Assembly: GCA_027449025.1 (NCBI GenBank) | Contig: DAIDMK010000001.1 | Location: 1-64,000, forward strand | Reading direction: 5' to 3' | Source of the DNA: Lutibacter sp. | GTDB taxonomy: Bacteria; Bacteroidota; Bacteroidia; Flavobacteriales; Flavobacteriaceae | Length of the DNA stretch: 64,000 bases | Shown here: piece after piece, positions 24,107 to 44,388 of the stretch | Layout of the letters: every line of letters starts with the position of its first letter | Numbering within the stretch: the stretch's first letter is position 1 | Made by a program: the position numbers and the translations under genes | Notes under the pieces: generated by a model | Told to the model about the DNA's origin: nothing | Databases searched by the model: none | What the model saw: only the letters and a program-made list of their open reading frames with translations

Positions 24107-24117
24107 TTTTTTGAATC

Positions 24118-27050: not shown

Positions 27051-27092
27051 CAATAAAAAATTAAAAAAGCAATCAAAATCCGTTTTAGCACG

Positions 27093-27126: not shown

Positions 27127-27147
27127 TTTATAAAAAAAACCTTGTTA

Positions 27148-28086: not shown

Positions 28087-28149
28087 TATAATATATTTTT
28101 TAGTTAGTAATTTTATAAATCTAGTGAAAATATTTTGATTTTTGCACAT

Positions 28150-28519: not shown

Positions 28520-29305
28520 ATGGAATTTTCTATTCCTTTATTTGCTGGCGTAATTGCCGCAATATTGCACGTAATATCAGGTCCGGATCACTTGGCGGCA
28601 GTAACTCCTTTTGCCATTGAAAGTAAAAAGAAAGCTTGGAAAGTAGGGCTTTTTTGGGGCATTGGGCATTTGCTAGGAATGCTTAGCATTGGTGTTTTAT
28701 TTTTGATATTTAAAGAACTGATACCTGTGGAAAAAATATCGATGCATAGTGAAAAGATGGTCGGCATTATTTTAATAGGTTTAGCCTTATGGATTTTCTA
28801 TAAAATTTTTAAGGATGAAAAATATCACGAACATACACACATACATGTTGAAGGAAATCCAATAATTCATGAACATCCGCACATTCATGAGGAGATTGGT
28901 TCAGAAATTAAGAAACATTCAGGCATTGGCTATGAAGTTGGTGAGGTTATTAGGAATCATCCTCACATTCACCAAACTGAAAAATCACATATCCACAGTA
29001 ACTCAGCGTTAAAACAAGGCATTATTGCTTCTTTATCGGTGGGTTTTGTTCATGGTTTGGCAGGTGTTGCACATTTTTTACTGTTTCTTCCTGTCATCGG
29101 GTTTGCCTCAAAACTGGAGTCCGCAAAATACATTATCGGTTTTGGAATAGGAACTTTGGCAGCGATGATATCTTTTGCTTTTGTGATTGGCAGTGTAGCT
29201 GCATTTTCAAAAAAGGACCACAACAATACTTTTTTCAAAGGAATTAGAATGGCTGGCGGTTTGTTTGCTCTTTTGATAGGGATTTATTGGTTTATGGCGA
29301 ATTAA
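28520..29305 (+). CDS. NicO/UreH-like nickel (metal) transporter, His-rich
   Basis: 261 residues with about six membrane helices. Helix 1 carries HVISGPDHLAAVTPF, close to the HxxxxDH metal signature of nickel/cobalt transporters, and the second half repeats it as GFVHGLAGVAHFLL. A long loop (about 100-155) is packed with histidines (HEHTHIHVEGNPIIHEHPHIHEE). It probably brings Ni2+ to the cytoplasm for the hydrogenase encoded next to it; this is inference from motif plus context. The family name also covers urease and sulfite-exporter relatives, but no urease gene is present. Confidence 0.82.
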   Translation: MEFSIPLFAGVIAAILHVISGPDHLAAVTPFAIESKKKAWKVGLFWGIGHLLGMLSIGVLFLIFKELIPVEKISMHSEKMVGIILIGLALWIFYKIFKDEKYHEHTHIHVEGNPIIHEHPHIHEEIGSEIKKHSGIGYEVGEVIRNHPHIHQTEKSHIHSNSALKQGIIASLSVGFVHGLAGVAHFLLFLPVIGFASKLESAKYIIGFGIGTLAAMISFAFVIGSVAAFSKKDHNNTFFKGIRMAGGLFALLIGIYWFMAN

Positions 29306-29635
29306 AATTTGAAATTTTTTTCCTTAACAGCAAAGTTCCTAGAACCTTAGAAATTCTTTGTGAAACTTAGTTATTCTCCGTGAATCTTTGTGAAATAGCT
29401 GTGTCATGAAGTTTCAAAGATTGAAAAAGAGTATTGAGCGGAGCTTAAGTGAAAAATCGTAAATCAAAAATGATAATTTGTAAACAAAAAGTTTAACTGC
29501 AAAGGCGCAAATATTTTCGCAAAAGGCGCTAAATGTTTAGAAATCGCAATTAGCCTTGCGGTTAGGTTTTCAAAAGTCTCGAAGTCTAAATTCAAAAAAT
29601 CGTATATCAAAAATCGTGATTCGTAAATAAAAAGT
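29306..29635. other. Intergenic region between transporter and hypE, repeat-rich
   Basis: 330 bp between convergent genes. It contains phrases such as CTTTGTGAAACTTAG and GCAAAGGCGCAAATATTTTCGC, reminiscent of common Bacteroidota intergenic repeats, plus a pair of 46-bp direct repeats listed separately. Confidence 0.6.
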
Positions 29636-29640
29636 TTAAC
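29453..29640. repeat. Pair of 46-bp imperfect direct repeats at hypE 3' end
   Basis: 29453-29497 and 29595-29640 match at about 39 of 46 positions (both begin AAAAATCGTA and end AAAAAGTTTAAC). The second copy runs over the hypE stop codon (29636-29638). Similar phrases occur upstream of hypC and near 20460. Confidence 0.65.
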
Positions 29641-30661
29641 AAATTCTTGGTAATTGTTCACCAACCAAAGGACTTACAATTCTTTTTCCTCCAATAAAGC
29701 TTTGCATCACCACTTTATTGGGGTGTTCATTGGTAATTTCACCAATTAAAGCAGCATTTTTACCTTTTTCATGATTTTTCATGAATGCTAAAACTTCAGC
29801 TTCAATACTTGAATCAATAACTACTAAAAAAACACCTTCATTGGCAACATACATAGGATCTAACCCTAACATTTCACAAGCTGCTGCTACTTGTTTTTCT
29901 AGTGGAATAAATTCTTCTTTTAAAAACACACCTTTTGAAATGTCGTTGGCAATTTCATGTAAAACAGTTCCTAAACCACCACGCGTTGGATCTCTGAATA
30001 ATTTAATTTTTTCACCAAATTGATCTAATAAATCTTTAACTAAAAAGTTTAAATTGGTTGAATCACTTTCAATATTCGATTCAAATTGTAACCCTTCACG
30101 TTCACTCATAATTGCCATTCCGTGCTGAGCTATATAACCATTTACTAAAATTTTATCACCTTCTTTTATATGATGAACAGAAATATTTGCTTTTGGATGA
30201 ACTTCTCCAAAACCTGTTGTATTAATAAATATTTTATCACCTTTTCCTCTTTCCACCACTTTAGTATCACCTGTAATTATTAATACCCCACTTTCATCAG
30301 CCGCTTTTTTAATAGATTGAACAATTTGTATAAATTCTGAAACTTTTAATCCTTCTTCAATAATAAAAGCCAATGATAAATACTTTGGAATGGCACCGCA
30401 CATAGCAACGTCATTTACAGTGCCGTGAACTGCTAAACTACCAATATCTCCACCTTTAAAAAAAATAGGAGTAATTACAAAACTATCCGTTGAAATTGCA
30501 ATTTTCCCATTAAATTTCACAATAGAGCCATCGTGTTTTTGGTCTAAAAAAGGATTACTAAATGTTGTGAAAATAATTTTATCTAATAAATTTCTAGTGA
30601 GTTCGCCGCCGCTTCCATGGCCTAAATTTATAGTTTCAAATCCTATATCTTCTATGTTCAT
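29636..30661 (-). CDS. hypE: Hydrogenase maturation protein HypE
   Basis: 341 residues with a PurM/AIR synthase-like fold (LGHGSGGELTRNLLDKI, then TDSFVITPIFFKGGDIGSLAVHGT) and FRDPTRGGLGTVLHEIA. The protein ends in PRIC, the C-terminal cysteine that HypF carbamoylates and HypE dehydrates to thiocyanate, the source of the active-site cyanide. The terminal Cys is at residue 341. It is separated from hypD by 3 bp in the hypF-hypD-hypE unit. Confidence 0.96.
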   Translation of the reverse strand: MNIEDIGFETINLGHGSGGELTRNLLDKIIFTTFSNPFLDQKHDGSIVKFNGKIAISTDSFVITPIFFKGGDIGSLAVHGTVNDVAMCGAIPKYLSLAFIIEEGLKVSEFIQIVQSIKKAADESGVLIITGDTKVVERGKGDKIFINTTGFGEVHPKANISVHHIKEGDKILVNGYIAQHGMAIMSEREGLQFESNIESDSTNLNFLVKDLLDQFGEKIKLFRDPTRGGLGTVLHEIANDISKGVFLKEEFIPLEKQVAAACEMLGLDPMYVANEGVFLVVIDSSIEAEVLAFMKNHEKGKNAALIGEITNEHPNKVVMQSFIGGKRIVSPLVGEQLPRIC

Positions 30662-30664
30662 TTT

Positions 30665-31756
30665 TTAGTCTATTAAATTATTTGAAAAATGATAATATGC
30701 TGCGCATGCACCTTCCGAAGAAACCATTGGAGCTCCCAACGGATTTGCCGGCTTACAAGCTTTCCCAAACTGATCGCACTGATTTGGTTTTTTAATTCCT
30801 CTTAAAATTTCACCTGCAATACAATTTGAATTTTCAGGTACTTTTATATAACTGATATTAAATTTTGATTCAGCATCATATTTTCTATAGGCTTCTTTAA
30901 TAACGTAGCCACTATTTGGAATTTCACCAATACCTCTCCATTCTCTATTCCCAATTTCAAACACTTTATAAATCACATCAATTGCCGCTTTATTCCCATG
31001 TTCTTTTACCACACGTGCATATTGATTTTCTAATTTATATTGCCCTGCTTCTAATTGTTTTACAGCCATATAAATACCTTGAACTAAATCTAATGGTTCA
31101 AAACCTGTGACAACTATTGGAATTTTATATGTTGAAACTAACGGATAATATTCTTGTATTCCCATAATGGCGCATACATGCCCAGCACCCAAAAAAGCAT
31201 CAATAGTACTCAATTTATCGTCTAAAATAGCTTCCATAGCTGGAGGAACTACAACATGTGATGCAAGAATTGAATAATTACTAATCCCTTCTTTTTCAGC
31301 ATGTAAGACAGACAATGCATTGGCTGGAGCAGTAGTTTCAAACCCAACTGCAAAAAAAACAACTTCTTTATCTGGATTTTGTTTTGCTATTGAAACTGCT
31401 TCAATGGGTGAATATAAAATTCGTAAATCACCCCCAAGTGCTTTTGCTTCTAACAAACTTTTTTTACTTCCTGGTACTCGGATCATATCTCCAAAAGAAC
31501 AAACAATAACTCCTTGTTCTAATAATTCAATAGCTTTATCAATTAAATTTAAAGGCGTTACACAAACTGGGCATCCAGGACCATGAATCATTCTTACTTT
31601 TTCAGGAAGTAATTCTAAAATCCCATTTTTCACCAGTCCATGAGTTTGTCCACCACAAATTTCCATAATATTCCATTCACGTGTTACTATTTTATGAATT
31701 TCATCTAAGATTTTTTTAGTTGCCTCAAAGTTTCTATATTCGGTTAAGTACTTCAT
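30665..31756 (-). CDS. hypD: Hydrogenase maturation protein HypD
   Basis: 363 residues. The catalytic core is visible as MEICGGQTHGLVKNG and HGPGCPVCVTP (thiols and [4Fe-4S] vicinity). The C-terminal cluster cysteines are in NQCDQFGKACKPANP and SEGACAAYYHF. With HypC it builds the Fe(CN)2CO group. The length is normal. It is translationally close to hypF (3 bp) and hypE (3 bp). Confidence 0.96.
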   Translation of the reverse strand: MKYLTEYRNFEATKKILDEIHKIVTREWNIMEICGGQTHGLVKNGILELLPEKVRMIHGPGCPVCVTPLNLIDKAIELLEQGVIVCSFGDMIRVPGSKKSLLEAKALGGDLRILYSPIEAVSIAKQNPDKEVVFFAVGFETTAPANALSVLHAEKEGISNYSILASHVVVPPAMEAILDDKLSTIDAFLGAGHVCAIMGIQEYYPLVSTYKIPIVVTGFEPLDLVQGIYMAVKQLEAGQYKLENQYARVVKEHGNKAAIDVIYKVFEIGNREWRGIGEIPNSGYVIKEAYRKYDAESKFNISYIKVPENSNCIAGEILRGIKKPNQCDQFGKACKPANPLGAPMVSSEGACAAYYHFSNNLID

Positions 31757-31759
31757 TTC

Positions 31760-34015
31760 TTAATTTTTGACATTTAAATAATACATCAATTGCCCAAAAG
31801 AAATATTTTCATCGTTTGGTGACACCTCTTTATGGAAATACAATTTTAGCTCATTTGGTGCTAATGCTAATAACATATCAATCAGCGTTGTATTTTGAAA
31901 AACACCTCCGCTTACTGCAATATAGTTGTAATTATTAATTTTTGCTGTTTCAACAATTGTGTTTGCTAAAGTAAATAGGAAATTTACAACAATCGTTTCT
32001 TTTAACACTCCATTTTTAAAATCTATAGCAATATTTTTAATTATTTCTTTAGAAGAAATTTCGGCTTCAAAAGATTTTAAATAGCTTCTACAAGTTTTTA
32101 AATCATATTTTGTAACCAAATTTTCCAGCAAAATTGCTGCTTCACCTTCGTATGAGTTAAAATCTGTAATATTTAACAATGAAGCAACAGCATCAAATAA
32201 CCTTCCAACTGAAGATGTTTTAAGTTTGTTTATTTTCTTTAAAGATTGGTAGGTTTTTAATTCGTTTGAAGAAAATTTTTCAACTAAAATAGATTGCATT
32301 TCATTTGAAACCAATGACAATAACGCAAGCCTAGGTTCTTTAGACATTTTATCGCCTAACAACCAATCAAAATATTCAAAATGATTGATTCTTTCCATTG
32401 TATTAGCTTCATAGTTAAAAAACTCTCCGCCCCAAATTTGTTCATCATCACCAAAACCAGTGCCATCAAAAACAACGCCTAACACTCTTTTATTAAATAA
32501 ATTATGCTCACCCAAAATGGCTGCAAAATGCGCTTTATGATGTTGGATTTTAATTAGTTTTGATGTTGTTTTTACCGCCAATTCTTTGCCATATTGCGAA
32601 CTGTGATAAAGGGGATGTTTGTCTATTAAAATAACTTCAGGTTGTTGTTCAAAAATGTTTATAAATGAATTTACTTCAGAAGTAAACCTATTATAAACAT
32701 CAAAATTTTCTAAATTCCCTAAATACTGACTTACATACAAATATTGATTAGGATAAAAAGCAATACTACTTTTTAAATCAGCTCCTAATGCCATTATTTT
32801 TTCTTCAGAATTTATTGAAACATTTAAATAATTAGGAGCATAACCACGTGATCTACGAAATAAAACCTCTTGATTAAATTTAGCACTAAACTTAACCACA
32901 GAATCATCCTGAGGATGCATAATTGGTAAATTATGATGCAAAAAATAATCGGCAACATGCTGTAATTTTTCAAAAGCATCATTATTTTCACTAATAATTG
33001 GTGAACTATGAATATTACCACTTGTGGCAACTATTGGAAAATTTAATTCATTTGCTAGCAACTGTAAAATCCCTGTATATGGAAGCATAACACCTAACTG
33101 ATTTAAACCTGGAGCAACCTCATCTAATACCATATTTCCTTTATAATTAATTGATGAAATAATAGTGATTGGACGTTCGGTTGAAGTAAGCAATTTCTGC
33201 TGCTTCTCAGTTAGTTTAACTTCATTTTTAAGAAACTCCATGGATGGATACAAAACTGCAAAAGGCTTGTTTGGCCTGTTTTTTTTAATTCGTAATTTAA
33301 GTACAACTTCCTCATTTTCAGCATTACAACATAACAAATAGCCACTGGTATTTTTAATTGCAATAATATTTCCATTGGAAAGTAATTTTGCTATTTCTTT
33401 AAATAAATTGTGTTGTGAAATTTCAATTTTACTAGAATTAGTATCAACTAAATACAATTGAATTCCACAAGAAGAACATGTATTTGTTTGTGAATGAAAT
33501 CTTCTATAAGTTGGTGAAATATATTCGTTTTTACATTCTTCACACATAGAAAATTTCTCAATACTTGTATGATTTCTTTCAAACGGGAATGTTTTGGTAA
33601 TTGCCCAACGAGGACCACAATTTACACAAGTTGTAAATGCATAATTATATCTACGGTTTTTTAAATCACTTATATCGTTTTTACAATCTTCACAAATAGC
33701 AAAATCAGGTGTTAGTGGTAAATTTAAGTTTCCGCTCTTATTAGATAGTATAATTTTAAAATCGTCAAATGGTTGAAAGTCAATTTGTGCAATTAAACTA
33801 TCTTTTATGCAAGAAACTGGTGGTGGAAATTGAATTAATTTATTATAAAACTTTTGTATTGAATTTTCAACTCCAGATACAAATATGATAACACCTTTCT
33901 CATTATTTGAAACTGTTCCTGTTAAAGAAAATGTTTTAGCTAAACCATATACATAAGGACGAAAGCCCACACCTTGAACTTGTCCTGAAATAGTTATTCT
34001 ATATGTTTTATGCAT
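31760..34015 (-). CDS. hypF: Carbamoyltransferase HypF
   Basis: 751 residues, the usual length, with all four parts: acylphosphatase-like (1-90, GQVQGVGFRPYVYGLA); two C4 zinc fingers (about 105-180, CEDCKN, CVNCGPRW, CEECKN, CSSCG); a YrdC-like domain (about 200-380, KKNRPNKPFAVLYP); and a Kae1/TobZ-like carbamoyltransferase (about 400-745, IQHHKAHFAAILGEH, FDGTGFGDD). It uses carbamoyl phosphate and ATP to charge the HypE cysteine. It lies behind a terminator-like hairpin that follows hyaD. Confidence 0.96.
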   Translation of the reverse strand: MHKTYRITISGQVQGVGFRPYVYGLAKTFSLTGTVSNNEKGVIIFVSGVENSIQKFYNKLIQFPPPVSCIKDSLIAQIDFQPFDDFKIILSNKSGNLNLPLTPDFAICEDCKNDISDLKNRRYNYAFTTCVNCGPRWAITKTFPFERNHTSIEKFSMCEECKNEYISPTYRRFHSQTNTCSSCGIQLYLVDTNSSKIEISQHNLFKEIAKLLSNGNIIAIKNTSGYLLCCNAENEEVVLKLRIKKNRPNKPFAVLYPSMEFLKNEVKLTEKQQKLLTSTERPITIISSINYKGNMVLDEVAPGLNQLGVMLPYTGILQLLANELNFPIVATSGNIHSSPIISENNDAFEKLQHVADYFLHHNLPIMHPQDDSVVKFSAKFNQEVLFRRSRGYAPNYLNVSINSEEKIMALGADLKSSIAFYPNQYLYVSQYLGNLENFDVYNRFTSEVNSFINIFEQQPEVILIDKHPLYHSSQYGKELAVKTTSKLIKIQHHKAHFAAILGEHNLFNKRVLGVVFDGTGFGDDEQIWGGEFFNYEANTMERINHFEYFDWLLGDKMSKEPRLALLSLVSNEMQSILVEKFSSNELKTYQSLKKINKLKTSSVGRLFDAVASLLNITDFNSYEGEAAILLENLVTKYDLKTCRSYLKSFEAEISSKEIIKNIAIDFKNGVLKETIVVNFLFTLANTIVETAKINNYNYIAVSGGVFQNTTLIDMLLALAPNELKLYFHKEVSPNDENISFGQLMYYLNVKN

Positions 34016-34025
34016 TAAATAAGCT

Positions 34026-34073
34026 TAAAAAAAATCCCTATAAATTTACAGTTTTTAATGTAATTTATAGGGA
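34026..34073 (-). terminator. Terminator-like hairpin between hyaD and hypF
   Basis: On the minus strand CCCTATAAATTACA pairs with TGTAAATTTATAGGG (one bulge) around TTAAAAAC, followed by ATTTTTTTT. It lies 35 bp beyond the hyaD stop and separates the structural operon from hypFDE. I see no -7 element between it and hypF, so hypFDE may depend on readthrough. Confidence 0.78.
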
Positions 34074-34106
34074 AGATTCAATAAAAAGAATGGTTAATAT
34101 TTATTT

Positions 34107-34637
34107 TTAAATCGTTATTTCTTTTAAAATAGTTAATATTTTATGTTCTACATTTTTAATATTAGATTGAACTTTTTGAGTTAAATTAATCGTCATTGGA
34201 ATCATTTCTGAAATAGAAACGGTAACTAAAATAATTTCAGGTAATTGGTTTTGAAATTCCAACGCTTCAATCATATCTTTCAGTCCTACATCATGAGCGC
34301 TTAAAACACTTGGAAAATCTGCTGCAAATTTAGGATAAATCACATCAATAGTACCTGCTGCTCTTCCATCCATTGTAGCATCAACAAAAATCACCAAAGG
34401 GTATTGAGATAAAATAGGCATCAAATCAAAACTCCCTGTTCCTCCGTCCATAATATCTACATTTTTAGGTAAATCAATTTTACTTAATGCATGAATTGTA
34501 TGTACTCCAACACCTTCATCACCCATTAAATAATTACCAATGCCAAGTATTAAAATTCTATCTTTTTTCTCACTATTCAAATAATCATGAGTTTGATAAA
34601 ACAATTTTTGCAATTCCATTACATCATCTGAAATCAT
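34107..34637 (-). CDS. hyaD: Hydrogenase large-subunit maturation protease (HyaD/HybD type)
   Basis: 176 residues of the M52 peptidase fold. The nickel-probing residues are visible: Glu in LGIGNYLMGDEGVGVH, Asp in DGGTGSFDLMP and His in SAHDVGLKDMIEAL. It removes the C-terminal tail of the large subunit after nickel insertion; the predicted cut is after His558 of HyaB. The stop of hyaC is 3 bp upstream. The gene is cytoplasmic and the length is normal. Confidence 0.93.
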   Translation of the reverse strand: MISDDVMELQKLFYQTHDYLNSEKKDRILILGIGNYLMGDEGVGVHTIHALSKIDLPKNVDIMDGGTGSFDLMPILSQYPLVIFVDATMDGRAAGTIDVIYPKFAADFPSVLSAHDVGLKDMIEALEFQNQLPEIILVTVSISEMIPMTINLTQKVQSNIKNVEHKILTILKEITI

Positions 34638-34640
34638 TCT

Positions 34641-35423
34641 CTATTTTTTTTTAGGTTTCTTTTTAGCTGGTTTTTTGTTTCCTTCCCACATTTGTTGTTT
34701 GGCTTTATCTATAATTTCTTCTTCAGTTTCTTTTACTCTTTCAGCGCGAATAAATTTAAAACCACTTATCATAGCTGAAGCTTCTCCTCTTGCTTCAACA
34801 TAATCATGGAATAAAACTAAATACACATGAATAACAACAAAAGCCATAAATATCCAAGTAAGAATATGGTGTATATATCGTGTGGTAATATCACCACCAA
34901 ACATAGTTGAAACCCATTTAAACATGTCTGGTAACCACCAACTTGAAGTGTCGGCAATTAATGATAGGCCAGTCATTACTTGTAATATAAAGAACAAAGT
35001 CATAATAAAATATGAAAAAGCTGCTAAATAATTATGCCCAATACTAATATTATGCAGTTTATGTTCTTTATCTTCCATTAAGAAGATATCAACTTTAAGT
35101 ACATGTATAATATTATATATTCCTTTTTTAGTGTATGGAATAAAATTACGCCAGTTTGCAAATTGATTGCCTGCAAAAGCCCAATAAATCCTAAAAATTA
35201 AATTTGCAATTAAAATATAGGCGGTTATAAAATGAATTGCTCTAACATAACCAAACCAAAATGAATTGGTAGCTTCTACATTGGCACTAATTGCTGGTGG
35301 ATTTGCAATGATAAATCCTGTTATTACCAAAATAGTTGTTGAAAATGCGGTTACCCAATGAAAAAGTCTAACAGGTAATTCCCATACATATATTCTTTTA
35401 AAATTAAATGTTGTTACTGCCAT
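34641..35423 (-). CDS. hyaC: Ni/Fe-hydrogenase b-type cytochrome subunit
   Basis: 260 residues with four main membrane helices (about 17-40, 58-82, 130-158, 180-205). Heme-ligand histidines sit in LPVRLFHWVTAFS, AIHFITAYIL and TRYIHHILTWIFMAFVVIHVYLVLFHDY. This HyaC-like cytochrome anchors the periplasmic dimer and passes electrons to quinone. The C-terminus is basic (KKPAKKKPKKK), facing the cytoplasm. It lies 26 bp after hyaB. Confidence 0.93.
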   Translation of the reverse strand: MAVTTFNFKRIYVWELPVRLFHWVTAFSTTILVITGFIIANPPAISANVEATNSFWFGYVRAIHFITAYILIANLIFRIYWAFAGNQFANWRNFIPYTKKGIYNIIHVLKVDIFLMEDKEHKLHNISIGHNYLAAFSYFIMTLFFILQVMTGLSLIADTSSWWLPDMFKWVSTMFGGDITTRYIHHILTWIFMAFVVIHVYLVLFHDYVEARGEASAMISGFKFIRAERVKETEEEIIDKAKQQMWEGNKKPAKKKPKKK

Positions 35424-35449
35424 TACTATAAATTTTAATGGTTTACTAA

Positions 35450-37186
35450 TTAAATACTACAAGATCCACCAATTTGAATTTGACTCACATGTTTTCCATG
35501 TTCATCATACAAATGCACTGCACAGGCCAAACAAGGGTCAAATGAGTGAATGGTTCTTAATATTTCAACAGGATTATTTGGATCTTCAATAGGAGTTCCA
35601 ATTAAAGCTGACTCATAAGCTGACATTTGTCCTTTTGGATCACGTGGAGAGGCATTCCAAGTAGTTGGAACTACCATTTGATAATTATCGGTTTTACCAT
35701 CTTTAATCACTATCCAGTGAGCCAAACCACCTCTAGGCGCTTCCATATATCCAACTCCTTTCGCTTCTTTAGGCCAAGTTTTCGGTTCCCATTTTTCTAA
35801 ATTAGCCATTCTAGTATCACCGTTTTTAATATTGGCAATTAACTTGTCGTAAAATTCTAATCCCCAATCGGCTAATAATTTAGATTCTAATCCTCTTGCA
35901 GCTGTTCTACCTAAAGTAGAGAATAAAGCGGTAACTGGAACATCTAATGCTTTCAAAGCTCCGTCTACTACGTTTTTAAATTCTGGTTTCCCTGAAGCAT
36001 AACCTACTAACATTCTAGATAATGGACCTACTTCCATAGGTTTTCCTTGCCATCGTGGAGTTTTTAAGAAACTATATTCTTTATCAATGTCTAAATGCTC
36101 GAACGGAGGTTTAGGACCCGTATAATTAATATTAGTTTCCCCTTCCCAAGGATGTAATCCGTTTTCTTTTCCTCCAGAATAATCATACCAAGATTTATTT
36201 ACAAATTCTTGAATTTCACTTGTATTTTCTAAATCAACTGGATGAACTTTACTTATGTCTCCATTTAAAATAACTCCTTGTGGCCATTTAAAACTTGCAG
36301 GATTTCTGTAATTATCAGTAGGTAAATCCCCATAAGATAAATAGTTGTTAAATTTAGAATCTCCAATAGCTCCCCAATCTTTATAGAAAGATGCAATGGC
36401 TAATAAATCTGGAACATAAACTTCATTAATAAATTTATGTGCATCTTTTAATAATTGACCAACATAGGCTAGGCGTTCCATATTTAAACCTCCAGCACCA
36501 TCTAAATTAATAGGACTTGCCATACCTCCAACTAAGAAATGAGGATGTGGATTTTTACCACCTAAAATAGTATGTACTTTTACAATTTCTTTTTGCCATT
36601 CTAAAGCTTCTAAATAATGTGCAACAGCCATTAAATTAACTTCTGCTGGCAATTTCATTGCTTTATGTCCCCAATATCCTTTTGCGAAAATTCCTAACTG
36701 ACCACTCTCCACAAACTTTTTAATTCGTTCTTTTACATCTGCAAAATATCCTGGTGAACTATTGTGCCATTTAGAAATACTTTGAGCTAATTCTGAAGTT
36801 GCCTTAGGATCTGCACTTAATACTTGAGTTACATCTACCCAATCTAGTGCATGTAAATGGTAAAAATGTACCACGTGATCTTGCATTGCGTGAGCAATAG
36901 TTACAATATTTCTTGTTATTTCAGCATTTGGCGGGATTACAATGTCTAATGCGTCTTCAACGCTACGTATAGATGCAATTGCATGAACGGTAGTACATAC
37001 ACCACAAGTTCGTTGAACAAATGCCCATACATCTCGTGGATCTCTGCCTTGCACTATTTTTTCCATTCCTCTTATCATTGTAGAGGAAGTATATGCATCT
37101 ACTACTTTTCCATCTTTTATTTCAGCTTCAACGCGTAAATGCCCTTCTATTCTAGTAATTGGATCTATTACAATTCTATTTGCCAT
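35450..37186 (-). CDS. hyaB: [NiFe] hydrogenase large subunit, group 1
   Basis: 578 residues. The N-terminal nickel ligands are in RTCGVCTTVHA (Cys61, Cys64) and the C-terminal pair in FDPCLACAVH (Cys552, Cys555). The tail after His558 (20 residues, ending GGSCSI) should be cut off by HyaD. Other group 1 landmarks: MIRGMEKIVQGRDPRD and RGGLAHWIVIKDGK. It holds the Ni-Fe(CN)2CO active site, oxidises H2 in the periplasm, and is co-exported with the Tat-borne small subunit 11 bp upstream. Confidence 0.97.
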   Translation of the reverse strand: MANRIVIDPITRIEGHLRVEAEIKDGKVVDAYTSSTMIRGMEKIVQGRDPRDVWAFVQRTCGVCTTVHAIASIRSVEDALDIVIPPNAEITRNIVTIAHAMQDHVVHFYHLHALDWVDVTQVLSADPKATSELAQSISKWHNSSPGYFADVKERIKKFVESGQLGIFAKGYWGHKAMKLPAEVNLMAVAHYLEALEWQKEIVKVHTILGGKNPHPHFLVGGMASPINLDGAGGLNMERLAYVGQLLKDAHKFINEVYVPDLLAIASFYKDWGAIGDSKFNNYLSYGDLPTDNYRNPASFKWPQGVILNGDISKVHPVDLENTSEIQEFVNKSWYDYSGGKENGLHPWEGETNINYTGPKPPFEHLDIDKEYSFLKTPRWQGKPMEVGPLSRMLVGYASGKPEFKNVVDGALKALDVPVTALFSTLGRTAARGLESKLLADWGLEFYDKLIANIKNGDTRMANLEKWEPKTWPKEAKGVGYMEAPRGGLAHWIVIKDGKTDNYQMVVPTTWNASPRDPKGQMSAYESALIGTPIEDPNNPVEILRTIHSFDPCLACAVHLYDEHGKHVSQIQIGGSCSI

Positions 37187-37197
37187 GATAAGTTATT

Positions 37198-38322
37198 TTA
37201 TGCTTTAATATTTTTTTCATTTTCTTCACCACATTCTTCAGCTTCTCTCAATTCTTTTTTCTTTGCGATATTGGTTGCTATTGAATGTATAACTGCCCCA
37301 CCGATAGCTGCTCCAACTACAATTTTACCAATTTTATCGGCTGTTGCTTCAATACCCATACCTGGTACATTTTCCAATCTTTCAGTAAATGGAGAATTAT
37401 CCCAGAAATCTGGCTCACTACACCCTATACAAGGATACCCTGATTTAATAGGGAAACTTACACCATTATTCCAACCCATGGTACCACATGCATTATAAGT
37501 TACTGGGCCTCTACAACCTAATTTATATAAACAGTGACCATCTTTGGCTTCTTGACTGTCAAAACTTTCGGCAAATAAGCCTGCATCAAAATAAGGTCTT
37601 CTATAACAGCTGTCATGAACTCTCTTGGCATAAAATTGTTTTGGCCTTCCTAATGAATCTAACTGTGGCAATACTCCAAAAGTTGCATAATGCATAATAA
37701 CTCCAGTCATAACTTCCCCAATTGGTGGGCAACCAGGTACTCTAATAATTGGTTTGTCCTTAATAATTGCATCTACAGGAACAGATCCTGTTGGATTAGG
37801 GTATGCTGCTTGTATACCTCCCCAAGCTGAACAACTTCCAAAAGTAATAATTGCGGCAGCACCTGCTGCTGATTCTTTCAAAATATCTATTGCAGATCTT
37901 CCAGCTATAGTACAATATACACCATCATCTTTCATTGGAATTGCGCCTTCTACAACTAATATATAGTTGCCATAATTCTCTTTCATAGATTCCTGTTTGG
38001 CTTCTTCGGCATTATGTCCTGAAGCAGCCATTAAAGTATCACTATAATCTAATGAAATATTCTCTAGTATTAAATCCGCTACTAAAGGATGATCCGAACG
38101 AATAAATGATTCCGAACAACCAGTACATTCCTGAAAGTGTTCCCAAATAACTGGAATTCGTTTTTTGGTTTCCATTGCTTTAACAACTTGCCCAACCATA
38201 CTAGATTCTAGCCCCATAAAAGCAGCCATATATGTCGTAAACTTCATAAAATCTCTACGGCTATAACCACTTTCAATAATGCTTTCATAATATGTTTTTC
38301 GATTTGCATTTTTAATAGACAT
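37198..38322 (-). CDS. hyaA: [NiFe] hydrogenase small subunit, Tat-exported
   Basis: 374 residues. A twin-arginine signal is present (RRDFMK at 22-27). Proximal cluster ligands are Cys66 and Cys69 (ECTGCSESF), then FGSCSAWGG and VPGCPP. Distal and medial cluster ligands are in HDSCYRRP, CLYKLGCRGP, YNACGTMGWN and YPCIGCSEPDFW. The two supernumerary cysteines of O2-tolerant enzymes are Gly here (CTGC, WGGIQ), so a standard [4Fe-4S] proximal cluster is expected. A C-terminal membrane helix (about 327-348) anchors it. It is the first gene of the hya operon. Confidence 0.97.
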   Translation of the reverse strand: MSIKNANRKTYYESIIESGYSRRDFMKFTTYMAAFMGLESSMVGQVVKAMETKKRIPVIWEHFQECTGCSESFIRSDHPLVADLILENISLDYSDTLMAASGHNAEEAKQESMKENYGNYILVVEGAIPMKDDGVYCTIAGRSAIDILKESAAGAAAIITFGSCSAWGGIQAAYPNPTGSVPVDAIIKDKPIIRVPGCPPIGEVMTGVIMHYATFGVLPQLDSLGRPKQFYAKRVHDSCYRRPYFDAGLFAESFDSQEAKDGHCLYKLGCRGPVTYNACGTMGWNNGVSFPIKSGYPCIGCSEPDFWDNSPFTERLENVPGMGIEATADKIGKIVVGAAIGGAVIHSIATNIAKKKELREAEECGEENEKNIKA

Positions 38323-38537
38323 ATCTAAAAGTTTTTAGTAATAAGATAGATTATTTAATTTTTTTCATATTTTTTAATGAAAAGAACGGCACTAAGTTAC
38401 AAATAATAGGTATTGATATTACACTAACTAGCTAATTTAGAACGATTTGAAATAAGAGCGATCTGCCTTTAAATGCTATAAATGTTACAATTAAAATTTA
38501 GTGATTTTATTGAATAGGTTTACAATTATATAATTTG

Positions 38538-38545
38538 TAATTTTG
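38538..38545 (+). promoter_or_regulatory. Candidate -7 element for hypA
   Basis: TAATTTTG, 34 bp upstream of the hypA ATG, within a block that shares ATTATATAATTT with the region before the metal transporter gene. No well-spaced -33 TTG is seen. Confidence 0.45.
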
Positions 38546-38578
38546 AGAGTAACTATATTGTAACGATATTATTAAAGT

Positions 38579-38920
38579 ATGCATGAATTATCAATAGCAA
38601 TTGGTATTGTTAAAATAGCTGAAGATGAAACGGCAAAAGCAAAAGCAAAACAAGTTACTAAAATTGAACTTGAAATTGGGGTTTTATCCGGTATTGAATT
38701 AGAATCTCTAAATTTTGTTTGGGAATCTGCCGTAAAAAATACAGTATTAGAATTTGCCAAGAAGGAGATTGATATTATTAAAGGAATTGGAAAATGTTTA
38801 GATTGTGATACAGAATTTGAAATGAAATATGTATATGATACATGCCCAAAATGTAAAAGTAATTTTAAAGGCATATTAAAAGGAAAAGAATTAAGAGTAA
38901 AAGCTATAGAAGTCATTTAA
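38579..38920 (+). CDS. hypA: Hydrogenase nickel incorporation protein HypA
   Basis: 113 residues beginning with the nickel-binding MHELSIA (His2, Glu3). The zinc loop has two CxxC pairs, CLDCDTEF and CPKCKS. It passes nickel to the large subunit together with HypB, whose gene begins 12 bp downstream. The gene is divergent from hyaA, the pair sharing a 256-bp intergenic region. Confidence 0.95.
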   Translation: MHELSIAIGIVKIAEDETAKAKAKQVTKIELEIGVLSGIELESLNFVWESAVKNTVLEFAKKEIDIIKGIGKCLDCDTEFEMKYVYDTCPKCKSNFKGILKGKELRVKAIEVI

Positions 38921-38932
38921 ATTTATAAAATT

Positions 38933-39760
38933 ATGTGTGGAACTTGTGGTTGCGGATCTGAAAATAATGGCCCTACAATTTTAAAACCTGGAGAGCATAT
39001 TCATGCTCATAATGAACATCAACACGAACACTCTCATGGAGAACATTCTCATTCACATCAAGAAGAACATCACCATCACGATGGTCATACACATTCTCAT
39101 GACCATAATCACAAACATAAAGTTTTAGAAATTGAGCAAGATATATTGCAAAACAATCAGGTTTTAGCAGCTAGAAATAGAGGTTATTTTGAAGCTAAAA
39201 ATATATTTGCGCTAAATATGGTCAGTTCACCGGGTTCAGGAAAAACTTCAATACTAGAAAGAACATTAACCCATTTAAAAGATGAAGTATCATTTTATGT
39301 GATTGAAGGTGACCAACAAACTTTAAATGATGCCAATAGAATCGATGCAATAAACATTCCTGTAATTCAAATAAATACAGGGAAAGGATGTCACTTAGAA
39401 AGTGATATGGTATATGATGCTGTTAAAAGGTTAAATATAAAAGACAATTCAATTTTGATGATTGAAAATGTTGGAAATCTAGTTTGCCCATCTATGTTTG
39501 ATTTAGGAGAAAGTAAGCGTGTTGTAATTATTAGTACTACTGAAGGTGAAGACAAACCAATTAAATATCCAGATATGTTTTATACTTCAGATATTTGCAT
39601 TATCAATAAAATTGATTTATTACCTTATGTAAATATTGACATTCAAAAATTAAAAAATTATGCTTTGCAAGTAAATCCAAATTTGCAATTTTTTGAAATT
39701 TCAGCTACTACGGGAGAGGGAATGGATGAATGGTATAAATGGTTGAAAAGCCCATCCTAA
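38933..39760 (+). CDS. hypB: Hydrogenase nickel GTPase HypB
   Basis: 275 residues. The N-terminal high-affinity nickel motif MCGTCGCG is followed by a histidine-rich store (about 23-62). The SIMIBI GTPase motifs are present: SSPGSGKTS (P-loop), EGDQQT, and NKIDLLPY (G4). Zinc/nickel ligand Cys and His are in GKGCHLE. It delivers or stores nickel in a GTP-dependent way with HypA. Confidence 0.96.
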   Translation: MCGTCGCGSENNGPTILKPGEHIHAHNEHQHEHSHGEHSHSHQEEHHHHDGHTHSHDHNHKHKVLEIEQDILQNNQVLAARNRGYFEAKNIFALNMVSSPGSGKTSILERTLTHLKDEVSFYVIEGDQQTLNDANRIDAINIPVIQINTGKGCHLESDMVYDAVKRLNIKDNSILMIENVGNLVCPSMFDLGESKRVVIISTTEGEDKPIKYPDMFYTSDICIINKIDLLPYVNIDIQKLKNYALQVNPNLQFFEISATTGEGMDEWYKWLKSPS

Positions 39761-39782
39761 ATCTTTCCCAAAAGGAAGGAAT

Positions 39783-39896
39783 AATTTATAAATCAAAATT
39801 CGTAAATCTAAAATTAAAAATAATGAGATTCTGAAACAAGTTCAGAATGACGATTCTAAAAAATCAAAATTCGTAATTCTAAAATCATAAATTAAC
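39783..39896. repeat. AT-rich repeats between hypB and hypC
   Basis: TCAAAATTCGTAAATCTAAA and TCAAAATTCGTAATTCTAAA occur about 74 bp apart, flanking a palindromic unit at 39828-39848. They resemble the repeats at the hypE end. Otherwise the 136-bp gap has no gene. Confidence 0.6.
39828..39848. repeat. Palindromic repeat (ATTCTGAA-ACAAG-TTCAGAAT)
   Basis: A perfect 8-bp stem with a 5-nt loop, in the wider phrase GAGATTCTGAAACAAGTTC followed by AGAATGACG. I recognise this from memory as a repeat scattered through many Bacteroidota genomes. It may also form a hairpin in the hypABC transcript. Confidence 0.6.
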
Positions 39897-40145
39897 ATGT
39901 GTTTATCAATTCCTGGAAAATTAATAGAAATAACTTCTCAACTAGATGAAGTTTTTAGAGTTGGAAAAGTCTCTTTTGATGGAATTATTAAAGAAGTGAG
40001 CTTAACTTTAGTTCCTGAAGCAGTTATTGGAGATTATGTAATGGTACATGTAGGAGCCGCAATTTCTATAATTGATGAAGATGAAGCCAAAAAAACTTTT
40101 GATATTTTGAAACAACTCGGAGAACTTCAGGATTTAGCCCCCTAA
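39897..40145 (+). CDS. hypC: Hydrogenase assembly chaperone HypC
   Basis: 82 residues beginning MCLSIPGKLIEI, with the essential Cys2 that binds the Fe(CN)2CO group and escorts it to the large subunit with HypD. The domain is a small β-barrel (VGKVSFDGIIKEVSLTLVPEAVIGDYVMVHVGAAI). It is 136 bp beyond hypB, an unusual gap filled with repeats. Its last codons and stop overlap the left arm of an inverted repeat (40137-40160). Confidence 0.95.
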   Translation: MCLSIPGKLIEITSQLDEVFRVGKVSFDGIIKEVSLTLVPEAVIGDYVMVHVGAAISIIDEDEAKKTFDILKQLGELQDLAP

Positions 40146-40325: not shown

Positions 40326-40850
40326 TTATTCGTACGAATGTTTGTAAGGTTGGCCACTAACAATTTTCAACAAATCGGCTTCTACAGATTCTCTCGGATA
40401 TTCAACCAAACGACCAATTTCTTTATCGTTTTTGTACACAATAAAAGTAGGGACTCTTTCAATATTGAAACCTTCCTGTAAATTATCTGGGGTGGTTTTG
40501 CTTCTGTTTACGGTTATTAATTCTAAATGGCTATAGTTAAAATCTACTTCATCCAAAATTTTATACAACACGGGCGTTTGATCTTGGCTATCGCCGCACC
40601 AAGTTCCCATAAATGCTTTGATGGTTACTTCTTTTAGAAGAGGTGTCAGTTTTGCGGTAACTTCTTTGTCTGTTTCATAAGAAGTATAATTTGGCGTGAA
40701 CCACTCATTAAATGGTGCTTCAAGAAAACTTTCTTTATTGGCAACGCCAATCAAATTTCCTGAGGAATCTTTTACCGAGGTTCCAATATTTTTTTGAGCA
40801 AAACAACTCATAGTGCTTAGAATAAGGATGAAATAAAATACATTTTTCAT
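40326..40850 (-). CDS. Secreted thioredoxin-like protein with WCGDS active site
   Basis: 174 residues from the ATG at 40850 (MKNVFYFILILSTMSCFAQ, signal peptide). A thioredoxin fold follows with GTWCGDSQDQTPVLYKIL where thioredoxins have WCxxC, so the second cysteine is Ser-replaced; the cis-Pro region is FNIERVPTFIVYK. A -7 element (40872-40879) lies upstream of this start and within the alternative 8-residue extension. Such one-Cys proteins can act as thiol peroxidase-like or isomerase-like folds; the role is not determined. Confidence 0.82.
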   Translation of the reverse strand: MKNVFYFILILSTMSCFAQKNIGTSVKDSSGNLIGVANKESFLEAPFNEWFTPNYTSYETDKEVTAKLTPLLKEVTIKAFMGTWCGDSQDQTPVLYKILDEVDFNYSHLELITVNRSKTTPDNLQEGFNIERVPTFIVYKNDKEIGRLVEYPRESVEADLLKIVSGQPYKHSYE

Positions 40851-40871
40851 TGTGTAAAAATTTAATTGCGG

Positions 40872-40879
40872 CAAAACTA
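40872..40879 (-). promoter_or_regulatory. Candidate -7 element for the thioredoxin-like gene
   Basis: The minus strand reads TAGTTTTG (TAnnTTTG), 21 bp before the ATG at 40850, in the gap after gpmI. Confidence 0.4.
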
Positions 40880-40884
40880 CAAAA

Positions 40885-42402
40885 TTAAATTAAGGAATGA
40901 CGCGTCATTACTTCTGGTTTTTCAATACCCATTAATTCTAAAATTGTAGGTGCAATATCACCTAAAACGCCATCATCAATATGTTTCAATTCTTTATCTA
41001 CCAAAATTACGGGAACTGGGTTGGTAGTGTGAGAGGTGTTTGGTGTTCCATCAGGATTTATCATGGTTTCGCAATTTCCGTGATCGGCAATAATAATGGT
41101 GGTATAATCGTTTTTTAAAGCAGCAGCAACCACATCTTCCACACATTTATCAACGGCTTCACAAGCTTTTATGGCTGCTTCCATCACACCTGTATGTCCA
41201 ACCATATCGCCATTGGCAAAGTTTAAACATACAAAATCAACTGCTTTTTTGTCCAATTCAGGAATAATGGCATCGCGTATGTCAAAAGCGCTCATTTCGG
41301 GTTTTAAATCGTAAGTAGCAACTTTTGGGGACGGACATAAAATGCGGGTTTCATTTTCAAATGTTTTTTCTCTTCCTCCTGAAAAGAAAAATGTAACATG
41401 AGGGTATTTTTCTGATTCCGCAATTCTGATTTGTTTTTTGCCGACTTTTTCCAGCACTTCACCCAGTGTATTTTCTAGATTATCTGTTGTATAAATGACA
41501 TGAATATTTTTGAAAGTATCATCATAACTCGTTAAGGTTACATAATACAACGGCATTGTTTTCATTCCAAATTCAGGATAATCTTTTTGCGTTAGCACTT
41601 CTGTCAATTCTCGCCCTCTATCGGTTCTGTAATTGAAGAAAATAACAACATCATCTGCTTTAATTTGCGCTTTTGGATGACCATTTTCATCGGTCATAAT
41701 AATGGGTTTGATAAACTCATCGGTCACATCATTGGTATAACTTTTTTCGATGCTTTTAATGGCGTTGGTCGATTTTTCACCTTCGGAATTTACCATCGCA
41801 TCATAAGCCAATTTGATGCGTTCCCAGCGTTTATCTCTGTCCATTGCATAATAACGTCCAGTAATTGTAGCCAATTCACCCGTGGTTTCTTTCATATAAT
41901 TTTGGATGGTTTCAATGAAATCTATGCCCGATTTTGGATCGCAATCTCTTCCGTCTGTAAATGCGTGTATAAACACATTTTTTAAGTTATGTTCTGCAGC
42001 AACATCCAACAAACCTTTTAAATGATCAATGTGGGAATGGATGCCTCCATCGGAAACCAATCCCAACATGTGGATATTTTTATTGTTTTCTTTTGCATAA
42101 GAAATGGCATCAAGTAACGCTTTTTCTTTTCCCAGCGTTTTATTTTTAACAGCCATATTCAGCCGCACCAAGTTTTGATACACAATCCTTCCAGCACCTA
42201 AATTCATATGTCCAACTTCACTGTTTCCCATTTGTCCTTCCGGTAGTCCCACATATTCTCCGTCGGTGCGCAAACTAGCATTTGCGTACTTACCGTATAA
42301 ACTGTCTATATAAGAAGTTTTTGCATTAAAAATAGCTGAAACTTTCGGGTCTTGGGTAATTCCCCAGCCATCTAAAATCATTAAAATCACCTTTTTGTTC
42401 AT
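40885..42402 (-). CDS. gpmI: 2,3-bisphosphoglycerate-independent phosphoglycerate mutase
   Basis: 505 residues from the ATG at 42402. Alkaline-phosphatase superfamily metal sites are visible: Asp11 in MILDGWG, the phospho-Ser61 in GQMGNSEVGHMNLG, then FTDGRDCDPKSG, FADGDMVGHTG-like region (NFANGDMVGHTG) and IIADHGNCETM. It interconverts 3- and 2-phosphoglycerate in glycolysis using Mn2+. A start 27 bp earlier is less likely. The -7 element at 42429-42436 supports the chosen start. Confidence 0.96.
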   Translation of the reverse strand: MNKKVILMILDGWGITQDPKVSAIFNAKTSYIDSLYGKYANASLRTDGEYVGLPEGQMGNSEVGHMNLGAGRIVYQNLVRLNMAVKNKTLGKEKALLDAISYAKENNKNIHMLGLVSDGGIHSHIDHLKGLLDVAAEHNLKNVFIHAFTDGRDCDPKSGIDFIETIQNYMKETTGELATITGRYYAMDRDKRWERIKLAYDAMVNSEGEKSTNAIKSIEKSYTNDVTDEFIKPIIMTDENGHPKAQIKADDVVIFFNYRTDRGRELTEVLTQKDYPEFGMKTMPLYYVTLTSYDDTFKNIHVIYTTDNLENTLGEVLEKVGKKQIRIAESEKYPHVTFFFSGGREKTFENETRILCPSPKVATYDLKPEMSAFDIRDAIIPELDKKAVDFVCLNFANGDMVGHTGVMEAAIKACEAVDKCVEDVVAAALKNDYTTIIIADHGNCETMINPDGTPNTSHTTNPVPVILVDKELKHIDDGVLGDIAPTILELMGIEKPEVMTRHSLI

Positions 42403-42428
42403 AAGAATAGGATTTATTTTGAAAAACA

Positions 42429-42436
42429 CAAAGATA
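42429..42436 (-). promoter_or_regulatory. Candidate -7 element for gpmI
   Basis: The minus strand reads TATCTTTG, 26 bp before the ATG at 42402, a good match to TAnnTTTG. Confidence 0.5.
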
Positions 42437-42642: not shown

Positions 42643-44388
42643 ATGAAAAGCACCATAAAATTTAATAAAGTAACAGAACGATTACCAAAACATTTGCATC
42701 AGTTCATTGTGAAGCAACCTTATGCGGAATATACAGCCCAAAATCAGGCAGTATGGCGTTATGTGATGCGCATGAATATTGATTTTTTGAGTAAAGTGGC
42801 ACATGAATCGTATTTGGATGGCTTGAAAAAAACGGGTATTTCTGAAGAGGTTATTCCGAAAATGGAGGGAATGAACCGTATTTTAAAGGATATTGGCTGG
42901 GCGGCAGTTTCTGTTGATGGATTTATTCCTCCCAATGCTTTTATGGAGTTTCAGGCATACAATGTGCTGGTAATTGCTTCTGATATTAGAACGATTGACC
43001 ATCTTGAATATACACCGGCGCCCGATATTATCCACGAAGCCGCTGGTCACGCACCAATTATTGCCAATCCAGAATATGCCGAATATTTGCGCAGGTTTGG
43101 CGAAATTGGCTGCAAAGCAATTTCTTCTTCTGAAGATTACGAAATGTATGAAGCCATCAGATTGCTTTCTATTTTAAAGGAAGATCCAAATTCTTCAGAA
43201 GTTGAAATTGGAAAAGCCCAACAAAAAGTGGAAGATTTGCAAAATACTATGGGAGAGCTTTCTGAAATGGCTCAAATACGGAATTTGCATTGGTGGACAG
43301 TTGAATATGGCTTAATAGGGATATTGGAAAGTCCGAAAATATATGGCGCTGGATTGCTTTCATCCATCGGTGAAAGCAAAAAGTGCTTAACAAAAGAGGT
43401 TGAAAAAGTTCCTTATACTATAGAAGCAGCAACACAAAATTTCGACATTACCAAACCACAGCCACAACTATTTGTAACACCCGATTTCGCGCATTTAAGT
43501 TTTGTGCTCGAAGAATTCGCCAATAAAATGGCATTGAGAACTGGCGGATTATCAGGCATACAAAAGTTGATAAAATCTAAAAATATTGGCACAATTGAAT
43601 TGAGCACCGGACTTCAAATTTCGGGTGTTTTTTCCAATGTGATTGTGGATGGCAACAATAAACCCATTTACGTTCAAACTTCCGGCCCAACTGCTTTGGC
43701 GAGCAGGGACAAGGAATTAATTGGGCACGGAATCGATTATCATATGGAAGGTTTCGGAAGTCCATTAGGGAAATTAAAAGGTATCAACTTAGCGATTGAA
43801 GATATGTTCCCAAAAGACCTAGAGGTTTACGGAATTTATGAAGGCAAAAAAACAACCTTAATGTTTGAGGGAGATATCAAAGTGGAAGGTGAAGTAATTA
43901 CGGGAAAACGCGATATGAAAGGGAAGATTTTATTGATTTCTTTTAAAAATTGTATGGTAACGCATAACGATAAAGTGTTGTTTCGACCGGAATGGGGAAT
44001 TTATGATATGGCTGTGGGAAAAGACATCATTTCAGCCCATGCCGGACCGGCTTCCGTTAATTCGTTTAAGAATTTAGGAGAAGTTTCAACAACCAAAACA
44101 CATAAAATTTCGTATTCAGAAGAAGAAATTAAGTTGCATATAATGTATCAGGATATCGCTGAAATGAGAAAGAGTGGCGTATTGGATTTTCTGAAAATTA
44201 GCTTAATTTTTGAAAAATTAAAAGTAAATTTTACTTCAGATTGGTTATTGCCCTTAGAGATGTATGAACTTGTTTACCACATGGATACAAAAATGAAAAC
44301 TGAAATTCTAGCGTATTTAATAGCGCTTAAAAAAATTAAAAAGTACGAACAGCTTATCACTAATGGAATCCGTATTATTTCAAAATAG
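42643..44388 (+). CDS. Biopterin-dependent aromatic amino acid hydroxylase with long C-terminal extension
   Basis: 581 residues. The N-terminal about 300 residues match the phenylalanine-4-hydroxylase fold: iron ligands in DIIHEAAGHAPI (two His), the Glu ligand region around WWTVEYGLIG, and PDFAHLSFVLEEFANKMA. The remaining about 280 residues (TGLQISGVFSNVIVDGN, EGDIKVEGEVITGKRDMKG) form a separate β-rich region absent from bacterial PhhA. It probably hydroxylates Phe to Tyr (substrate inferred). The gene stands alone. Confidence 0.88.
   Translation: MKSTIKFNKVTERLPKHLHQFIVKQPYAEYTAQNQAVWRYVMRMNIDFLSKVAHESYLDGLKKTGISEEVIPKMEGMNRILKDIGWAAVSVDGFIPPNAFMEFQAYNVLVIASDIRTIDHLEYTPAPDIIHEAAGHAPIIANPEYAEYLRRFGEIGCKAISSSEDYEMYEAIRLLSILKEDPNSSEVEIGKAQQKVEDLQNTMGELSEMAQIRNLHWWTVEYGLIGILESPKIYGAGLLSSIGESKKCLTKEVEKVPYTIEAATQNFDITKPQPQLFVTPDFAHLSFVLEEFANKMALRTGGLSGIQKLIKSKNIGTIELSTGLQISGVFSNVIVDGNNKPIYVQTSGPTALASRDKELIGHGIDYHMEGFGSPLGKLKGINLAIEDMFPKDLEVYGIYEGKKTTLMFEGDIKVEGEVITGKRDMKGKILLISFKNCMVTHNDKVLFRPEWGIYDMAVGKDIISAHAGPASVNSFKNLGEVSTTKTHKISYSEEEIKLHIMYQDIAEMRKSGVLDFLKISLIFEKLKVNFTSDWLLPLEMYELVYHMDTKMKTEILAYLIALKKIKKYEQLITNGIRIISK

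Follow-up and report, generated by a model that had tools for sequence, protein, structure and literature searches.

Apparent in-place exchange of a six-cysteine for a four-cysteine core in a [NiFe] hydrogenase locus of Lutibacter

Findings

This report concerns a membrane-bound [NiFe] uptake hydrogenase locus at positions 28520-40145 of a 64-kb window (the whole stretch of DNA analysed, to which coordinates refer) on contig C1 (DAIDMK010000001.1; 196,754 bp) of a Lutibacter sp. genome (GCA_027449025.1, here G000; 3.34 Mb in 136 contigs). Eleven intact open reading frames (ORFs) make up the full set (HyaABC, a protease, HypA-F and a UreH-like transporter), with hyaA to hypE on the minus strand and hypABC on the plus strand; a first-pass annotation, made from the letters alone, was thus right about both the completeness of the set and its two divergent units. 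We think it likely that the resident group 1 H2-uptake locus was replaced in place by one with a four-cysteine structural core, and that the resulting enzyme has a lower O2 tolerance and works mainly under microaerobic or anoxic conditions. The notable part appears to be the exchange, in place, of a six-cysteine for a four-cysteine core. Genes inside operons are known to be displaced in place; in the open-access literature, searched with some wordings only, we found neither a report of this for the core of a hydrogenase nor one of a natural reversal from six to four cysteines.

The assignment to group 1 is borne out by family matches and by matches in the Protein Data Bank (PDB), and membership of the membrane-bound uptake class is supported by the pair of CxxC motifs, Tat-type small subunit, three cluster sites and cytochrome b partner. 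The nickel ligands of HyaB (C61, C64, C552 and C555, in two CxxC motifs) are intact, as are, in HyaA, the ligands of the distal and medial clusters (presumably numbered H187, C190, C215, C221, C230, C249 and C252), and HyaA carries the Tat signal SRRDFMK; with catalytic and cluster-ligand residues intact, there is no sign of a decayed enzyme. The NCBIfam large-subunit models give HyaB high scores that stay under their strict cut-offs and do not decide the subgroup. The top PDB match of the large subunit is 3MYR, which we take to be the membrane-bound hydrogenase (MBH) of Allochromatium vinosum, of group 1e. Isp-type enzymes of that group have isp genes between the small and large subunit; we rejected this type for the window, where hyaA and hyaB are only 11 bp apart with no gene between them. 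As for group 1l, there is a hint only: Robiginitalea biformata is called 1l in a passage of PMC10305171, and its congener R. marina belongs to the six-cysteine sister group.

Loss of two cysteines and expected oxygen tolerance

In C. necator numbering, the window HyaA reads C17, G19, C20, C115, G120 and C149. The six-cysteine signature of O2-tolerant MBH (with a [4Fe-3S] cluster) is therefore absent, both mature positions 19 and 120 being Gly; in the congeners with the other core the six-cysteine motif is found in 24 out of 24. We placed the enzyme in a combined HyaA and HyaB tree of 119 rows, 117 of them distinct (a quick tree, LG+G4, with the two trait columns removed), which includes 46 chosen G genomes. 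It omits L086, L087, L089 and L094 as duplicates of G020, G270, G407 and G011, as well as L096 (six-cysteine motif), while L090, L153 and G482 were dropped for want of a HyaA or HyaB match. Six-cysteine rows number 98 and four-cysteine rows 21. The window and nine mates, with Gly19 and Gly120, form a clade of 10 rows (support 100) nested in a Bacteroidota-wide set of 106 rows (support 100), and the rest of this set is entirely of six-cysteine type (96/96). The remaining 11 four-cysteine rows, namely eight gammaproteobacterial relatives and three Bacilli, lie outside it. Such nesting among 96 six-cysteine rows implies that the two cysteines were lost in the flavobacterial clade, unless the root lies inside that clade. 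Judged from these data, the window HyaA reads as a lapsed descendant of six-cysteine enzymes, not a member by signature, and its state as a derived natural loss. Separately, the hydrogenase of L105, a record titled Comamonas, is almost identical to that of L104, titled Bacteroidetes, which points to a likely mislabelled or mixed bin.

Several changes were fixed along with the loss of the cysteines: in comparison with six-cysteine flavobacterial rows, these include W112F, A116S, D207S and H247Y in HyaA and N216H in HyaB, residue 112 of HyaA being Trp in 98/98 six-cysteine rows and in 0/21 four-cysteine rows. By alignment, N216H is two positions away from the counterpart of His229, a residue that in Salmonella Hyd-5 points at the proximal cluster, according to a passage of PMC3940037.

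Among PDB entries, the small subunit of the window is best matched by the C19G/C120G variant of the C. necator MBH (8POU/8POV), with Gly at the identical positions; the difference is that this variant is a laboratory mutant, whereas the window enzyme is natural and has further changes fixed in its clade. In the part of PMC10583674 that deals with it, the engineered variant is described as having a Cys4 [4Fe-4S] cluster, as retaining 52% of the native activity with methylene blue and as showing a diminished O2 tolerance, and a survey, in the relevant portion of its text, uses six versus four cysteines to class enzymes as tolerant or standard (PMC4486115). We infer that the window enzyme should hold a four-cysteine [4Fe-4S] proximal cluster, as opposed to the six-cysteine [4Fe-3S] cluster of most congeners, and that it would be less O2-tolerant, which makes microaerobic or anoxic H2 uptake likelier than aerobic use. 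The aerobic H2 oxidation proposed in the first-pass annotation thus finds no support in the sequence, both tolerance-marking cysteines being Gly, unlike in most congeners. L. profundi (G010), with the same core type, is described as microaerophilic in a passage of its genome paper, the main text of which has no occurrence of the word "hydrogenase" (PMC5219744).

Nevertheless, the enzyme could still be aerobic and resist O2 through another mechanism (a gas channel, second-shell changes or coupling to an oxidase). We consider this unlikely, but a serious competitor, and the following points weigh against lower tolerance or, more generally, against a confident reading of function. Other [NiFe] groups resist O2 without a [4Fe-3S] cluster, and cysteines alone cannot tell O2 tolerance. 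The neighbourhood of the locus includes a heme o synthase gene and an ORF resembling oxidase subunit III, and three of the co-fixed changes (W112F and A116S in HyaA, N216H in HyaB) are near the proximal site. The oxygen requirement of L. profundi is also given, in part of its genome paper, as microaerobic, aerobic (PMC5219744). Glu73 of the large subunit has been described as a further tolerance marker (in a passage of PMC3940037); the window has Gln at the equivalent position, but so have 36 of the 98 six-cysteine rows (the others being 31 Gly and 31 Glu) and all 21 four-cysteine rows. We rejected this marker as non-discriminating, and, given its mixed state, tolerance is not proven for the six-cysteine enzymes of Bacteroidota either. 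Finally, R. biformata, a flavobacterium with the "group 1l" enzyme, showed no substantial H2 consumption in three weeks, as stated in a passage of PMC10305171, so hydrogenase activity is not to be taken for granted. What decides us for lower tolerance is that the same Gly/Gly state, once engineered in C. necator, lowers O2 tolerance (PMC10583674), together with the use of the cysteine count as a tolerance signature (PMC4486115).

Mosaic ancestry of the locus

The species marker was gyrA (rpoB gave no match at threshold in the window genome). In the gyrA tree the window falls inside an 11-row set (support 99; a 10-row set has 97) with ten sister genomes, namely G005, G011, G014, G015, G018, G022, G024, G031, G032 and G034. 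The same site and the gene order ureH-hypEDF-core-hypABC-thx-gpmI-PAH are found in G011, G034 and G014, and in others as far as their contigs extend. The flanks point to the sisters, with protein identities of 91-94% for gpmI, 87-90% for PAH and 95-96% for gyrA (91% for G015, where it is in two pieces), and the window lies in a 13-row set of the gpmI+PAH DNA tree and a 5-row set of the ureH tree (support 100 in both). As far as these trees tell, ureH on one side and thx-gpmI-PAH on the other follow the species tree.

The structural core has other affinities. The six-cysteine MBH of the sisters G011 and G034 and of R. marina (L098), whose hyp genes are related to those of the window and which in the sisters occupy the same site in the same order, have Cys19 and Cys120 where the window has Gly/Gly, and their HyaB is 71-73% identical to that of the window. 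Taking hyaA, hyaB, hyaC and protease in this order, the window proteins are 86-89, 89-94, 81-90 and 81-87% identical to those of G020 and L. profundi LP1 (G010), then 78-82, 80-86, 62-75 and 71-80% to those of six genomes of other genera, and 63-67, 72-74, 51-57 and 52-57% to those of the 24 six-cysteine congeners (with hyaC and protease together just 51-57%). For comparison, hypD is 83-94% identical across Lutibacter and 67-71% to the six other-genera genomes. In the core tree the window groups with G010 and G020 (support 99), then with the six genomes of other genera (100), as against 28 rows. Forcing the window core to join nine sisters is rejected by the approximately unbiased (AU) test (p-AU 1.2e-7), and so is forcing all 27 Lutibacter rows together (p 2.5e-94). 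A replacement of the core hyaA-B-C-protease is, in our view, firmly indicated by these comparisons. Purely vertical inheritance with a fast-evolving core is hardly credible: the site and gene order are indeed those of the sisters, but all four core genes are nearer to the six other-genera genomes than to the 24 six-cysteine congeners, and both tests reject it.

Sliding DNA identity scans (300-bp and 75-bp steps, 14 genomes compared) suggest that more than the core was exchanged. The nearest genomes are the sisters over ureH and the following spacer; over hypE-D-F, G036 or G033 is best in 13 of 15 steps, G020 once, and the sister G011 in the last step beside the core; over the stretch between 34.1 and 38.3 kb, G010 or G020 is best in 14/14 steps; and from 40.1 kb on the sisters are best again. 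Holding the hypE-D-F DNA of the window with five sisters is rejected (p 0.004); at the protein level, the window hypEDF held with G010 and G020 gives p 0.054. At four-fold sites (sums over genes), identity to the sister G011 is 430/736 (58%) for the flanks (gyrA, gpmI, PAH, ureH), 140/396 (35%) for hypEDF and 124/337 (37%) for the core; hypEDF agrees with G036 at 208/419. Thus hypE-D-F probably came from another Lutibacter lineage. L. profundi offers a parallel, with the same four-cysteine core (four genes 87-94% identical) within Lutibacter hyp genes, although its hypEDF do not group with those of the window, and its thx-gpmI-PAH genes are ~40 kb off on the ureH side, whereas in the window they stand beside hypC.

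Some results count against this picture, chiefly in its outer part. The protein AU test on hypEDF does not reject the window with its sisters (p 0.123), nor does the DNA test on hypA+hypB (p 0.52), and the ancestry of hypC is ambiguous by both protein identity and DNA scan, so we are less certain of the outer block than of the core. Moreover, at four-fold sites the core agrees with that of G010 (218/468, 47%) about as well as gyrA does (122/279, 44%), so these sites single out no recent donor.

The last result is also what an ancestor of Lutibacter with both cores, as old duplicates of which each lineage kept one, would predict, with no transfer into this genome. We find this improbable. Every HyaB-positive genome, in the genus set and in the family sample, shows one group 1 core (G012 by a fragment); the four-cysteine core sits in the exact slot filled by the six-cysteine core in the sisters; hypEDF is also foreign at the DNA level; and the relatives of the core lie in other genera. 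An assembly or binning chimera, in which a piece of another Lutibacter was joined into the contig, seems more improbable still. The genome is in 136 contigs and the exact mosaic is seen in one assembly, but joins would be required at both ends of the block within a 197-kb contig, and a four-cysteine core inside Lutibacter hyp genes also occurs in G020 and in L. profundi, the latter an isolate whose genome is one contig of 2,966,978 bp.

Junctions and the proposed exchange

Residues 22-45 of hyaA (Tat signal) match the six-cysteine G036 at 23/24 positions and G010 at 20/24, and residues 46-120 match G010 at 70/75 and G036 at 50/75. This is suggestive of an inner right junction in hyaA, although 24 conserved residues are few. 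AT-rich repeats of the AAAATCGTAAATCAAAAAT type are found at the left (29447-29640) and at the right (39790-39892) outer border of the locus. Their matches per genome (with the control count) are 61 (4) in G000, 47 (3) in G011, 71 (6) in G034, 8 (4) in G036 and 1 (2) in G010. The repeats are thus scattered through the genomes of the clade to which the window belongs, so their position at the borders may be a coincidence, and we rejected them as a cause of recombination. No integrase, transposase or other mobile gene was recognised among the family-scanned ORFs from 24 to 50 kb (gpmI, PAH and small ORFs being outside the scan). Relatives, then, carry the locus in the same place with trees that are not congruent: the "transferable cassette" of the first-pass annotation is supported as far as transferred material goes (the core, and probably hypE-D-F), whereas a self-contained island that is mobile finds no support.

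We propose that the resident locus was exchanged where it stood, with homologous recombination as the likeliest route. The incoming outer block would run from hypE to about hypB or hypC and come from another Lutibacter lineage; nested in it would be the core (hyaB, hyaC, the protease, and hyaA starting at its signal peptide), derived from a flavobacterial clade in which both supernumerary cysteines had been lost.

Distribution in the genus and a possible exchange slot

Of 38 Lutibacter genomes, counting that of the window, 28 have a match to group 1 HyaB. In 24 it is 71-74% identical to that of the window, and four are of the second type: the window, G010 (94%), G020 (89%) and G012 (91%), the last typed from a HyaB fragment plus hyaC and protease identity, with HyaA off the contig and its cysteines not in view. 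Matches to HyaB occur in 31 of 397 sampled Flavobacteriaceae genomes and in 100 of 395 genomes of the phylum, many of these in one family; hydrogenases are therefore uncommon in the family sample, as first supposed, but not in this genus. Uptake hydrogenase genes in a Lutibacter metagenome-assembled genome (PMC11279179) and hydrogenases of sediment Flavobacteriaceae (PMC8443593, PMC8857189) are already in print, as seen in passages of these papers.

Other states of the locus exist. G003 (L322) and G009 (L321) have hyp genes without a core and retain the second hydrogenase described below; their hypA and hypF face each other, 386 and ~340 bp apart. No core gene was matched in these gaps, and in G003 a 61-bp remnant is similar (E 5e-7) to part of the core region of G001. 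In the sister G024 (L237, ~13270-14560), ureH breaks off after its first 84 residues and passes into hypC, and a gene with an ORF6N domain lies close by; hypD was not found in this genome, which is only 78% complete, and we see here the probable scar of a whole-locus deletion. The absence of HyaB in G018, whose hyp contig ends in hypF, may reflect fragmentation and not loss. Comparison of congeners thus shows, within one genus, loci with a six-cysteine core, loci with a four-cysteine core, loci without a core and, probably, the absence of the whole locus, and the gyrA tree requires four changes of core type across 21 Lutibacter rows (G012 labelled without HyaA in view). It is tempting to see in the Lutibacter locus a natural exchange slot, one hyp set holding either core or none, or the whole being gone, with cores traded between lineages at recurring junctions (the hyaA signal peptide and the hypF-protease spacer). 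O2 tolerance would then be tuned by allele exchange and not by point mutation in place. We put this forward tentatively, our confidence in it falling somewhat short of even.

Function and the second hydrogenase

From what is known of the family, H2 would be oxidised at HyaB, outside the cytoplasmic membrane, and electrons would pass through all three HyaA clusters (the proximal four-cysteine one, the distal and the medial) to the cytochrome b HyaC and on to the quinone pool; HypA-F and the protease would ensure maturation. A second, cytoplasmic Hox-type operon is encoded at 2568-7559 of G000:C6:99001-112000 (L314), with NuoE/F-like genes, a HoxU+HoxY-like fusion, a [NiFe] large subunit and a protease; its type of large subunit (~485-490 aa) was matched in 29 of the 38 genus genomes. 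With one hypD match in the genome and two hydrogenases, the hyp set probably serves both enzymes, and this shared duty would keep the hyp genes under selection during an exchange of the core.

Features of the locus and its surroundings

Curated-family cut-offs are passed by HypE, HypD, HypF, HypA, HypB, the cytochrome b (TIGR02125), the small subunit (TIGR00391) and the protease (TIGR00072). The transporter, which we take to be UreH-like, is weakly typed (PF13386, 25.3 bits for a cut-off of 24.9; RcnA-like, 28.7 bits for a cut-off of 195). The gene called a likely nickel importer in the first-pass annotation is present beside the hyp genes, and mainly this position makes it a candidate for nickel import. 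The names gpmI and PAH in the right flank are presumed. A promoter scan gave 49 matches, below the shuffle mean of 66.5.

Table 1. Features of the hydrogenase locus and its flanks in window coordinates.
Feature	Position	Strand	Remarks
UreH-like transmembrane transporter, His-rich loop, candidate nickel transporter	28520..29305	+	resident by ancestry; tree with sisters, support 100
Spacer with clade-typical dispersed repeats, near left outer border of replaced block	29447..29640	.	
hypE	29636..30661	-	TIGR02124, 438 bits; DNA nearest G036/G033
hypD	30665..31756	-	TIGR00075, 484 bits; sole match found in genome
hypF	31760..34015	-	TIGR00143, 679 bits
Hydrogenase maturation protease, HyaD/HybD type, foreign core	34107..34637	-	TIGR00072; 87% to G010
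hyaC, cytochrome b subunit, foreign core	34641..35423	-	TIGR02125; 90% to G010
hyaB, [NiFe] large subunit, foreign core	35450..37186	-	PF00374, 780 bits; 94% to G010
hyaA, Tat-signal small subunit, Gly19/Gly120 in mature numbering (four-cysteine proximal site), probably foreign from near residue 46 onwards	37198..38322	-	
Divergent hyaA/hypA spacer, 256 bp	38323..38578	.	
hypA	38579..38920	+	TIGR00100
hypB, His-rich N-terminus	38933..39760	+	TIGR00073
hypB-hypC spacer, same clade-typical repeats, near right outer border	39790..39892	.	
hypC	39897..40145	+	PF01455, 84.9 bits; ambiguous ancestry
Resident flank: thioredoxin-like gene (PF00085/PF14595) and gpmI	40326..42429	-	
Resident flank: PAH	42643..44388	+	87-90% to species-tree sisters

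Between hypC and the thioredoxin-like gene (40136-40325) there is a 24-bp inverted repeat with 142 bp between its arms. On the other side, a low-G+C block (~27-31%; 22000-28400) between tRNA genes and the locus encodes a LytTR regulator, a TPR histidine kinase and a response regulator; a gene 91% identical to the latter adjoins ureH in G011. A heme o synthase gene is close to ureH in G023 and G033. Further away, at 3642-3723, there is a Flavo-1 RNA (RF01705, 61 bits).

Implications

The very Cys19/Cys120 change produced in the laboratory appears to have arisen in nature, in one lineage, with the enzyme otherwise intact and neighbouring changes fixed, and this four-cysteine form has apparently spread into the locus of a species whose sisters retain the six-cysteine form. 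For Flavobacteriaceae, a word of caution follows: the presence of a hydrogenase alone should not be equated with aerobic H2 use. The Lutibacter loci also provide natural pairs that share the site, have related maturation genes and differ in the core, with which the costs and benefits of the [4Fe-3S] cluster, and the adaptation of its second shell, could be tested.

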